This document shows positions 47,974-51,613 of a DNA stretch of 64,000 nt, in pieces. Each line of letters starts with the position of its first letter. Position 1 is the stretch's first letter. The stretch lies in contig NZ_CP034855.1 of assembly GCF_005082585.1 (NCBI RefSeq), positions 558,001-622,000 of the forward strand. Reading direction: 5' to 3'. The position numbers and the translations under genes are program-made. The notes beneath the pieces are model-generated. The model did not search any database. It saw only the letters and a list, made by a program, of their open reading frames with translations, and was not told where the DNA came from. The DNA is from Buchnera aphidicola (Sitobion avenae) (GTDB lineage Bacteria > Pseudomonadota > Gammaproteobacteria > Enterobacterales > Enterobacteriaceae).

Positions 47974-48845
47974 ATGATTTTTCATTCTTATAAATGGATA
48001 GTATTTTTTATCTTTTTAGTAACATTTCCCACTGAAGCTAAAGATAATATTTTCTCTAAAAAAAACAGCTCAAAAACAATAGAAAATTTTTTTTTAATAA
48101 AATCAATGTTAAAAAAGAACTATGTAAAAATAGTAATAATACAAATTCATTAAAAAAAATCATTATAATAATAGATGCAGGGCATGGTGGATACGATCCT
48201 GGAGCAATTGGCATTCAAGGAATACAAGAAAAAAAAATAAATATCGCAATAGCACTGCGACTTCAAAAATTACTAAATGATAACAGTATGTTTCATACAA
48301 TTCTAACTCGTAGTAATGATTCTTATCTTTCACTAAAAAAAAGAAAACAATTTATAAATAAAAACCACGTAAATTTTTTAGTATCTATTCACGCCGATTC
48401 TTCTAAAAAACAATATGTATCAGGAGCTTCTGTTTGGATTGTATCAAAAACTAGAATTAATCGTGAAATTGACAATTACTTAAAAAAAAAATCACCGATA
48501 GTTTTTTCTCAAAAAATTGAAAAAATATTTAACGAAAATAAAAATGATATTTATTTAAAAAAAACTATTTTAGAATTACAAACTAATAACTTTCAAAAAA
48601 TAGAGTTAGATGTATCTAACAAAATATTAGAACAGCTTGAAAAAAATACAAAATTAAATAAAACATATCCAAATTACGCCAGTTTAGGTATATTAAGCTC
48701 TATTAACACGCCCTCCATATTAATAGAAACCGGTTTTATTACAAATTTTTTAGAAGAAAAGAAATTGAGAACTACAGAACACCAAGATAAAATTGCTTAT
48801 TCGATTTATTTAGCTCTCAAGAATTATTTTAATAACTCATCTTAA
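47974..48845 (+). pseudogene. amiB: N-acetylmuramoyl-L-alanine amidase AmiB, frameshifted at a T9 run
   Basis: Zinc amidase that cleaves septal peptidoglycan for daughter separation. The ATG at 47974 gives a signal-peptide-like start (MIFHSYKWIVFFIFLVTFPTEA), but the frame ends at 48153. The Amidase_3 domain is in the next frame: IIDAGHGGYDPGA (Zn His), IQEKKINIAIAL (Glu), LVSIHADSS (second His) and ILIETGFITN (catalytic Glu). The frames join if the run of nine T at 48087-48095 had ten; the product would then be 290 residues. The AMIN and LysM regions of the 445-residue E. coli AmiB are missing. Either a polymerase-slippage gene, a recent pseudogene, or a sequencing error. Confidence 0.85.
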
Positions 48846-49291: not shown

Positions 49292-49543
49292 ATGTATGAT
49301 AATAAAAAAAAAATTAAATTCATGTATTTTAATAAAAAAAATAATAAAAATAAAAAATTAAATTTGTACATATATTTAATTTTAATATGTATATTTATTT
49401 TTTTTATTTATTCGAATATAAACTTGAATATATCTTCTACAATAAAAAGTAATAATATTGAAAAAGACACTAAACATGATAATCAACTACCTCCTAAACC
49501 GAAGGAAAAATGGAAATATATTCATAAACTAGAAAATTTATAA
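49292..49543 (+). CDS. ftsN: Miniature cell division protein FtsN (cytoplasmic, TM and E motif only)
   Basis: 83 residues. A Lys/Asn-rich cytoplasmic segment (1-22) is followed by one membrane helix (about 24-41, LYIYLILICIFIFFIYS) and a short periplasmic part ending LPPKPKEKWKYIHKLENL (66-83). That end matches the essential E motif of E. coli FtsN (LPPKPEERWRYIKELES), including the Trp, Tyr and Leu needed to activate FtsQLB/FtsWI. The Gln-rich linker and the SPOR domain (E. coli total 319 residues) are absent, and the stop follows directly after the motif. It lies upstream of hslVU exactly as ftsN does in E. coli. Function by inference: septal activation without peptidoglycan binding. Confidence 0.85.
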   Translation: MYDNKKKIKFMYFNKKNNKNKKLNLYIYLILICIFIFFIYSNINLNISSTIKSNNIEKDTKHDNQLPPKPKEKWKYIHKLENL

Positions 49544-49739: not shown

Positions 49740-50270
49740 GTGACTACAATATTAAGCGTAAGATTAAAAAATAAAGTAGTAATTGGAGGTGATGGACAAG
49801 CAACTCTAGGCAACACAATCATGAAAAGTAATGTAAAAAAAATCAGATCTTTATATCATGAACAAGTAATTGCTGGTTTTGCAGGAGGAACTGCAGACGC
49901 ATTTACTTTATTTGAAATGTTTGAAAAAAAATTAGCGATGTATCAAGGACAATTACAACGCGCAGCTATTGAATTAGCAAAAGATTGGCGATCTGATAGA
50001 ATGCTACGAAAACTTGAAGCTTTATTAGCCGTTGCTGATAAAGAAAGTTCGTTAATTATCACAGGAAATGGAGACGTAATACAACCTGAAGATGATTTAA
50101 TAGCTATAGGATCAGGTGGTTCTTATGCCCAATCTTCTGCTCGAGCGTTAATCGAAAATACTAGTTTAGATGCAAATGAAATTGTAAAAAAATCATTAAA
50201 CATCGCAGCTAATATTTGTATATATACAAATCATACTTTCACTATAAAAGAACTATTTTCGGAAAAATAA
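49740..50270 (+). CDS. hslV: ATP-dependent protease subunit HslV
   Basis: Threonine-protease dodecamer of the HslUV (ClpYQ) proteasome-like complex. 176 residues as in E. coli. The start is a GTG at 49740 with AGAGG 8 nt upstream; the mature protein begins with the catalytic Thr of [24 protein letters not shown] and [16 protein letters not shown] are near-identical to E. coli. hslU follows 11 bp later. A TTGAAA at 49644-49649 could be part of a sigma-32 promoter, but the -10 is poor. Confidence 0.97.
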
Positions 50271-50281
50271 GGATTATCTCT

Positions 50282-51613
50282 ATGTCTGAAATGACTCCTC
50301 CTCAAATTGTTTCTGAACTTGATAAATTTATTATTGGTCAAGAAAAAGCAAAAAGAGCCGTGTCTATTGCATTAAGGAATCGTTGGCGCCGTATGCAGTT
50401 AAATAGTGAACTTCGTCATGAAATCACTCCTAAAAACATTTTAATGATTGGACCTACAGGAGTAGGTAAAACAGAAATAGCAAGACGTTTAGCTAAATTA
50501 GCAAACTCTCCTTTTATTAAAGTCGAGGCGACTAAATTTACTGAAGTAGGATATGTTGGTAAAGAAGTAGATTCAATCATTCGCGATTTAACTGATGCTG
50601 CAATAAAAATGATTCGAATTAAAAACATCGAAAAAAATAAAACTCAAGTAGAAGCAATAGTGGAAGAGAAAATATTAGATGTTCTTGTTCCCACACCAAA
50701 AAAAAATTGGGCCGAAAACGAAAAAAATGAAAGTCTTTTAAAAACAATTCAAACATTTCGAAAAAAATTAAGAGAAGGTGTTTTAGATGAAAAAGAAATA
50801 GAGATAAATGTATTGGCAACTACTATGGGAGTTGAAATAATGGCGCCTCCAGGAATGGAAGAGTTAACCAGTCAACTACAATCTTTATTTCAAAATTTAG
50901 GAGGACATAAAAAAAATAATAGACGTCTAAAAATTAAAGATGCTATTGCACTATTAACAGAAGAAGAAGCAGCTAAATTAATTAATCAAGAAGAGATCAA
51001 AAAAGAGGCTATTCATGCTGTCGAACAAAATGGTATAGTTTTTATTGACGAAATTGATAAAATATGTAAAAGAGGTGATTCTTCTGGACCGGATATTTCT
51101 CGAGAGGGTGTTCAAAGAGATTTACTGCCATTAGTTGAAGGATGCACAGTATCTACTAAACATGGAATGGTTAAAACAGATCATATTTTATTTATTGCAT
51201 CTGGAGCATTTCAAACATCTACACCTTCCGACTTAATTCCTGAACTACAAGGACGTCTTCCAATTAAAGTTGAATTGCAAGCACTTACTATTGATGATTT
51301 TGAAAAAATTTTAACTGAACCTACAGCATCTATCACTGCGCAATATAAGGCACTTATGGAAACAGAGGGTGTTTATATTAATTTCACAAAAGAAGGAATA
51401 CGTAATATCGCAGAAGCTGCTTGGAAAGTTAATGAATCTATGGAAAATATTGGAGCCCGTCGATTACATACTGTATTAGAAAAATTAATGGAAGATATAT
51501 CTTTTAATGCCAGCGATAATAAAGGCAATACAATTGAAATTAATTCAAATTATGTAGGAGAACATTTGGACCAATTAGTATCTAATGAAGATCTTAGTCG
51601 TTTTATTTTATAA
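50282..51613 (+). CDS. hslU: ATP-dependent protease ATPase subunit HslU
   Basis: AAA+ unfoldase feeding substrates to HslV; heat-shock protein in E. coli. The start at 50282 ([17 protein letters not shown]) gives 443 residues, the E. coli length; an upstream in-frame start inside hslV is rejected. Walker A is [16 protein letters not shown], Walker B is [13 protein letters not shown], the pore motif is EVGYVGKEV, and the C-terminal EDLSRFIL that docks into HslV is intact. The intermediate domain (about 110-240) is the most divergent part. A T-tailed hairpin follows. Confidence 0.97.

Follow-up and report, generated by a model that had tools for sequence, protein, structure and literature searches.

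An ftsN descendant ending at the E motif ahead of hslVU in Buchnera aphidicola

The locus ahead of hslVU

We analyzed a gene of Buchnera aphidicola (Sitobion avenae) that descends from the cell division gene ftsN. The gene lies on contig NZ_CP034855.1, within positions 558,001 to 622,000 of the forward strand, a stretch of 64,000 nucleotides referred to here as the window, whose own numbering is used below. It occupies 49292..49543 (+), starts with ATG and comprises 83 codons and a stop; the translation is MYDNKKKIKFMYFNKKNNKNKKLNLYIYLILICIFIFFIYSNINLNISSTIKSNNIEKDTKHDNQLPPKPKEKWKYIHKLENL, and the stop codon follows directly after L83. An earlier note, made from the sequence alone, had reported an 83-residue frame with a basic N-terminus, one membrane helix, a C-terminal motif and a stop, read as FtsN pared down to its anchor and essential E motif, and this frame was recovered exactly as described. 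The N-terminal Lys/Asn-rich cytoplasmic tail (residues 1-24, 49292..49363, +) contains A runs, the site of frame splits in other genomes, and is intact here. It is followed by a single hydrophobic membrane helix (approximately residues 25-43, 49364..49420, +), where hydropathy reaches its maximum of 2.40, ending 40 residues short of the C-terminus, and where AlphaFold2 also predicts a helix. A variable periplasmic linker (residues 44-65, 49421..49486, +) then leads into the terminal E block, LPPKPKEKWKYIHKLENL (residues 66-83, 49487..49540, +). At the matching position E. coli FtsN reads LPPKPEERWRYIKELES, such that W74 (49511-49513), Y76 and L80 of Buchnera correspond to E. coli W83, Y85 and L89, and the terminal L83 corresponds to an Arg.

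The position directly before hslVU, also pointed out in the earlier note, is that of ftsN in E. coli K-12, where the gene order is hslU, hslV, ftsN, cytR, priA, rpmE. Upstream in the window is the divergent rpmE (ribosomal protein L31; 48956..49183, -), identified from sequence and from the gene order in E. coli, and, in contrast to E. coli, cytR and priA do not lie between rpmE and the ftsN gene. Downstream, as in E. coli, are hslV (49740..50270, +) and hslU (50282..51613, +), for which the ATG start was read from the letters, the listed frame beginning at an upstream TTG. No later FtsN coding remnants are left before hslV in the window. A scan gave 17 promoter-like matches versus 10.9 (standard deviation 3.0) in shuffles, which we did not use as support, and found no terminator.

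Relationship to FtsN

When the window protein was scanned alone against NCBIfam, its two top matches were the two FtsN models, covering residues 35-81 (E 1.5e-4) and 21-82 (E 2.1e-4), with three other families ranking below them (E 0.0035-0.034). Across the 31 orthologues found in the genus, which make up alignment A1, each FtsN model (NF008179 and TIGR02223) matched 27 of 31 at E<=0.01, the best at 1.5e-7, and the next family matched 5 of 31. Since the FtsN models come first both for the single protein and across the orthologues, the resemblance goes beyond chance. Among six relatives in the protein database, one is named ‘cell division protein FtsN’ by its source. The window protein had no match in the PDB, and its Pfam matches were all below cut-off and unrelated to FtsN.

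The layout of the protein and its position are likewise those of FtsN. A short basic tail and one membrane helix are common to the orthologues (best 19-residue hydropathy mean at least 1.63 in 31/31), and an hslV frame is present in all 31 loci. AlphaFold2 run on A1 gave a long helix in the membrane part (mean pLDDT 95 at residues 31-40), no regular structure at residues 64-70 and a helix at residues 71-82 (mean pLDDT 76.8), with a pTM of only 0.34. The SPOR domain (PF05036) had no match in the window's genome (647,564 bases, 3 contigs), in line with the expectation that no long, SPOR-containing FtsN is encoded elsewhere; in the control, 6 of 14 genomes matched PF05036, E. coli included. Given the stop after L83 and the lack of a SPOR match in the genome, we regard the gene as a descendant of ftsN rather than canonical FtsN, one that, judged by its sequence, has lost SPOR.

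Conservation and selection across the genus

The genus search covered 36 genomes, 34 of them readable at the locus (G003 and G030 were left out in part or whole), and an orthologue was found ahead of hslV in 31 of the 36. Three of the 34 readable genomes (G004, G019 and G025) have hslV and no ftsN gene, as determined by protein search, the A1 profile and a three-frame reading of the gap between rpmE and hslV. Elsewhere in these three genomes the A1 profile did not detect the motif, the best match (E 0.0056) not covering it. TIGR02223 by itself was too insensitive for this purpose, giving no match for G014, a genome that has the gene. A search by HslV, which retained 80 loci from 533 relatives, included Buchnera (Pemphigus) locus L109, where no E-motif frame was seen by eye ahead of hslV; the A1 profile gave chance-level matches only in that genome.

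Conservation is concentrated at the end of the protein. Mean pairwise identity among the 31 orthologues is 78% in the last 18 columns, 31% in the 25 columns preceding them and 41% in the helix region. Just four columns, W74, Y76, L80 and L83, are invariant in 31/31, and six are nearly so: L66 (29), P67 (30), P70 (29), K71 (30), I77 (30) and N82 (28). The Trp/Tyr/Leu motif and the membrane helix anticipated by the earlier note are thus present in every orthologue. E. coli W83, Y85 and L89 are reported as the FtsN residues most sensitive to alanine scanning (PMC10390529), and evolution has preserved these three critical residues and trimmed almost all the rest.

We estimated the ratio of nonsynonymous to synonymous substitution rates (omega) for the 18 codons of the E block in the 31 genomes on the hslV tree. 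Omega was 0.128 (lnL -556.30 versus -592.31 at omega 1; 2 x delta lnL = 72), far from the value near 1 that would have spoken against the earlier note, and hslV itself gave 0.025 on the same tree. The E block is therefore under purifying selection, and the retention of its codon meaning speaks against a conserved RNA element. For the helix and linker (43 columns after trimming), the codon fit did not optimize for the 31 genomes or for the 18 with split genes; neither these fits, the grid best of ~0.2 (kappa at 1), nor the free fit of 0.446 in the 13 genomes with an intact gene was used.

Division partners and co-loss

Domain matches to FtsW, FtsI (PBP_dimer) and FtsL were each found in 35 of 36 genomes, all three being absent from G025, and FtsB was above cut-off in 26 of 36. 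No FtsQ match above cut-off was found in the 36 genomes (parts of G003 and G030 left out), with one chance match at E 0.08; in the control for this search, 5 of 14 genomes scored above cut-off, and E. coli matches. The earlier note had proposed a minimal activator of FtsWI and FtsQLB. The paring down to anchor and E motif is supported and the FtsQ part is not, the expected target being FtsLB-FtsWI given that FtsQ has no match in the 36 genomes.

The FtsL and FtsB frames are short. In E. coli, residues 64-87 of FtsB bind FtsQ (PMC6134095), and the sheet contacting FtsQ is formed by FtsB 83-88 and FtsL 115-118 (PMC10076392). The Buchnera FtsL ends 5-16 residues past position 91. FtsB frames are 52-79 residues long in the 24 of 29 loci read by a W-L/I-Q-Y/F pattern; the other five of the 29 are G001, G004, G008, G010 and G023, and the 29 do not include G025, G030, G031, G032, G033, G034 and G035. 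The FtsB model matches end by position 57 of 80, and beyond approximately residue 61 the protein looks by eye unrelated to E. coli FtsB. From the short FtsL and FtsB frames and the early-ending FtsB matches, the strands contacting FtsQ are missing in both proteins.

The surfaces predicted to meet the E motif are better preserved. The AWI residues of E. coli FtsL are R61, R82, N83, L84, L86, E87 and A90 (PMC10076392), and the corresponding block was found in 33 of 34 loci by a loose pattern (W-R/K-x-L-x-x-E), which itself fixes W81, L84 and E87 and allows Arg or Lys at position 82. Position 82 is Arg in 33/33, N83 is kept in 32/33, and position 86, Leu in E. coli, is Ile in 32 and Leu in 1. Among the FtsI positions predicted to touch FtsN (34 rows), V86 is Val in 30, Ile in 2 and Leu in 1, with one gap, and Y168 is Tyr in 33 and Leu in 1; R167 and the catalytic S307 are present in 34/34. 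Together, the FtsL and FtsI residues predicted to contact the E motif are mostly kept.

The genomes lacking ftsN also depart from the others at these partners. G025 has no matches to ftsN, ftsW, ftsI or ftsL, G004 has the sole FtsL of the 34 that reads without the block, and G019 has the sole FtsL block altered at N83, with Met at position 90. The co-loss of ftsN with its partners is thus partial, and three losses are too few for statistics.

Frame splits near poly(A) runs

In 13 of the 31 genomes, the window's genome included, a tail starting with ATG shares one open frame with the E block. In the other 18 the frame is broken upstream of the helix, within the Lys-rich part that carries A runs. 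The upstream piece looks tail-like by eye (MYxNKxKI and similar) in 15 of these 18, and a tail pattern found no such tail in the split genes of G002, G005 and G035. For 16 of the 18, the E frame contains no ATG, GTG or TTG upstream of the helix (at least 62 codons from the stop); two have a TTG at that distance. The intact or split state has changed at least 10 times on the tree across the 31 tips. Omega for the E block was 0.110 in the 13 intact genomes (lnL -252.0 versus -268.6 at omega 1) and 0.111 in the 18 split genomes (lnL -380.4 versus -405.7 at omega 1). A clade of five genomes, all with a break upstream of the block (in four of them in a shared register, in the fifth by an in-frame stop), gave 0.071 (lnL -140.78 versus -151.21). 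The fits for split sets include inner branches on which ftsN may have been intact.

Similar splits were found in ftsL, where the block and the membrane part are in different frames in 18 of 33 genomes (17 of 32 by pattern and G031 by eye). The FtsL split state has changed at least 10 times among 32 tips, and omega for the FtsL block was 0.036 in 15 unsplit and 0.037 in 17 split genomes. Where both genes were scored (30 genomes), at least one of ftsN and ftsL is split in 25. FtsI and FtsW differ in this respect: 33 of 34 loci, all but G031, have an open FtsI frame of 557 codons or more, and a single genome of 35 (G005) has a broken FtsW domain match, in two overlapping pieces with stops.

Three further observations concern genes of this kind. 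The FtsL of the window's own genome, which lies outside the window at G000:C1:243907-244133 (-), is split too: past a run of nine A, the EWRNLIIEKN block is no longer in the frame of the membrane part. The FtsI of G031 seems to be interrupted, with stops, a PBP_dimer match that falls into two pieces and a longest frame of 437 codons, and this genome has ftsN and the FtsL block nonetheless. Within the window, a gene at 47974-48845 (+) encodes an amidase, putatively AmiB (PF01520, E 2.5e-30 over 48288-48842), that is also split, its signal-peptide-like start (47974-48153) being in another frame with runs of eight A nearby. Amidases of this type make the glycan bound by SPOR domains.

Homopolymer assembly error may be behind the splits. 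For slippage correction in Buchnera, one corrected locus is cited (PMC3164680), and a Buchnera transcriptome study reports no frame restored by transcription error (PMC5574713).

Interpretation and rival explanations

We think it probable that genome reduction has worn ftsN down to an anchor ending at the E motif and that the product is still in use with FtsLB-FtsWI. Homology, position, truncation, purifying selection, the lack of SPOR and FtsQ matches, the retention of most predicted contacts and the partial co-loss make up the comparative case for this reading, and expression, binding and activation of Buchnera FtsN are likely by analogy with E. coli. In the E. coli model, the FtsI head carries L75-P79 of FtsN as a polyproline helix, with W83-L89 packed against the FtsI neck and against L86/A90 of FtsL (PMC10390529). 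By the same logic, the helix of Buchnera FtsN would hold the protein in the inner membrane, LPPKP would run as polyproline along the FtsI head, and the Trp-x-Tyr-Ile-x-x-Leu helix would act as a wedge with the FtsI neck on one side and the FtsL AWI face on the other, a docking that would switch FtsW/FtsI to septal wall synthesis. The layout predicted by AlphaFold2 for the Buchnera protein alone, irregular at 64-70 and helical at 71-82, is compatible with this model. The FtsQ arm and the feedback between SPOR and denuded glycan are gone, and activation would proceed via FtsL, FtsB and FtsI alone.

Several observations weigh against this reading. The window protein scores 20.9 and 21.4 bits, far below the full-length FtsN cut-offs of 107.65 or 525, though a full-length cut-off is unreachable for 83 residues, so this bears on architecture and not on descent. 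P68, the equivalent of E. coli P77, is Pro in just 19 of 31 orthologues, and Ala is in the minority at FtsL position 90 (A 10, T 12, S 10 and M 1 of 33). The K/R-D-Y motif near the FtsN N-terminus, which binds FtsA (PMC7613929), is not kept; by eye the tail reads MYDNKxKI(N)SMYF, with the basic stretch kept, and a link to FtsA is doubtful given the absence of the motif. A K/R-D-Y motif concealed in the Buchnera tail was considered and dropped. The E. coli E fragment is reported to be sufficient on overexpression, and its tracking used a superfission FtsB (PMC9525312). The orthologues were found by similarity, such that a copy without the motif would count as absent. G004 and G019, which lack ftsN, keep matches to FtsW, FtsI and FtsL; division thus proceeds there, and the gene is not indispensable. 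The absence of the gene from three readable genomes, the 18 split genes and the lack of a start codon ahead of the helix in 16 of them belong here as well. Apart from FtsQ, the original reading of a reduced FtsN needs correction in three respects: 18 of 31 orthologues are frame-split, K/R-D-Y is not kept, and the paring is not unique to Buchnera.

The splits can also be taken as part of the system. The anchor and the block are repeatedly out of frame (18/31 for FtsN, 18/33 for FtsL) with both blocks under strong selection, which would fit a self-consistent minimal switch of FtsN(E), FtsL, FtsB, FtsI and FtsW, lacking FtsQ and SPOR, in which FtsN and FtsL would be decoded via poly(A) slippage that sets the amount of activator. 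We offer this extension tentatively and would not be surprised to see it fail.

An unlikely alternative to continued use is that the gene is in decay: what is left would be the front part of a dying ftsN, recognizable as far as the E block and inactive in many lineages. The split frames in 18 of 31 orthologues, the loss in 3 of 34 readable genomes, the linker identity of just 31% and the stop after the motif in Serratia symbiotica PERIS-14S, where FtsN remnants (SPOR-like by eye) still lie downstream, all fit decay. However, selection on the E block is alike in intact and split genes and is also seen in the interrupted clade, inner branches included. We consider it very unlikely that the segment has been retained for the bifunctional synthase PBP1b instead of FtsWI, as the co-loss observed, in a search that did not extend to PBP1, is with ftsW, ftsI, ftsL and the FtsL block. 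An unrelated small membrane protein with a chance resemblance to the motif, in a genome rich in A+T, might be suspected from the short, low-complexity, Lys/Asn/Ile-rich sequence and the modest single-protein E-values, but is for practical purposes refuted by the shared ftsN locus, the FtsN model matches in 27 of 31 orthologues and the presence of FtsN, complete or shortened, at the corresponding locus of relatives.

If FtsN is still in use, its survival in Buchnera bears on a recent generalization. A 2023 review scores ftsN at 0% in 38 and 15 Buchnera genomes and states that none of the obligate intracellular bacteria covered there, among them Buchnera, has an FtsN homologue, from which other switches for septal synthesis were inferred (PMC10591338). 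This inference is not safe for Buchnera. We found no description of Buchnera FtsN in the literature searched, which leaves out subscription papers, supplements and database annotation. The lack of an FtsQ match above cut-off in the 36 genomes, the ending of FtsL and FtsB before the FtsQ-contact strands and the retention of most predicted E-motif contacts are new here; truncated FtsN was already known from Serratia symbiotica, and the Buchnera case is thus not unique. The Buchnera gene is nature's counterpart of the E. coli deletion series, anchor and E motif remaining after long reduction. With 83 residues and an FtsLB free of FtsQ, it allows a direct test of how little protein suffices to switch on FtsWI.

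Comparison with known systems

The Buchnera protein shares with E. coli FtsN (NF008179, TIGR02223) the locus before hslVU, a basic cytoplasmic tail, one helix and the equivalents of W83, Y85 and L89. Unlike E. coli FtsN, it has 83 rather than 319 residues, stops 9 residues past the Trp and lacks the long periplasmic linker, SPOR and K/R-D-Y, and its genome has no FtsQ match. Full-length FtsN carries SPOR, as do DamX, DedD and RlpA, whereas the Buchnera genome has no PF05036 match. PDB chains of at least 20 residues similar to E. coli FtsN comprise the SPOR domain and one SPOR-like chain, none of which covers the E segment.

Short FtsN frames are also found elsewhere in the family. Among 392 family genomes, TIGR02223 matched at E<=1 in 298 and above cut-off in 272. 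We chose 29, mostly small genomes, 7 of them above the TIGR02223 cut-off, and read one locus in each of 24 of the 29. A pattern found an E-motif frame in 23 of these 24 loci, and G289 has a W-x-Y-I-x-x-L frame without prolines. Fourteen of the 24 (11 genera; L202-L217) have open frames of 83-125 residues ending 9-41 residues past the Trp (G043, G053, G073, G129, G135, G150, G183, G184, G195, G215, G253, G289, G292 and G316), and of the 13 scored for it, 11 have hslV no more than 900 bases downstream; in G073, G129 and G289 the model match spans a stop. Unlike Buchnera, several of these relatives keep K-D-Y. At the other hslV loci from the HslV search, the upstream frame contains the E motif in 70 of 79, and 53 of these read PEERWRYIKELENRQ.

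Parallels also come from other symbionts. A degraded ftsN is mentioned for a Pantoea symbiont (PMC5091035). In Serratia symbiotica SCc and STs, FtsN is reported to be cut to a very small portion, which was tied to E. coli truncation work (PMC5013485); as in Buchnera, the front part is kept, which the E. coli experiments found sufficient for division. In Serratia symbiotica PERIS-14S (L125), a TAG lies directly after KELENR; behind this stop are 73 more open codons and, by eye, a SPOR-like stretch. Unlike the far more diverged Buchnera gene, PERIS-14S keeps K-D-Y and downstream FtsN remnants, and it may show the same kind of paring at an early stage.
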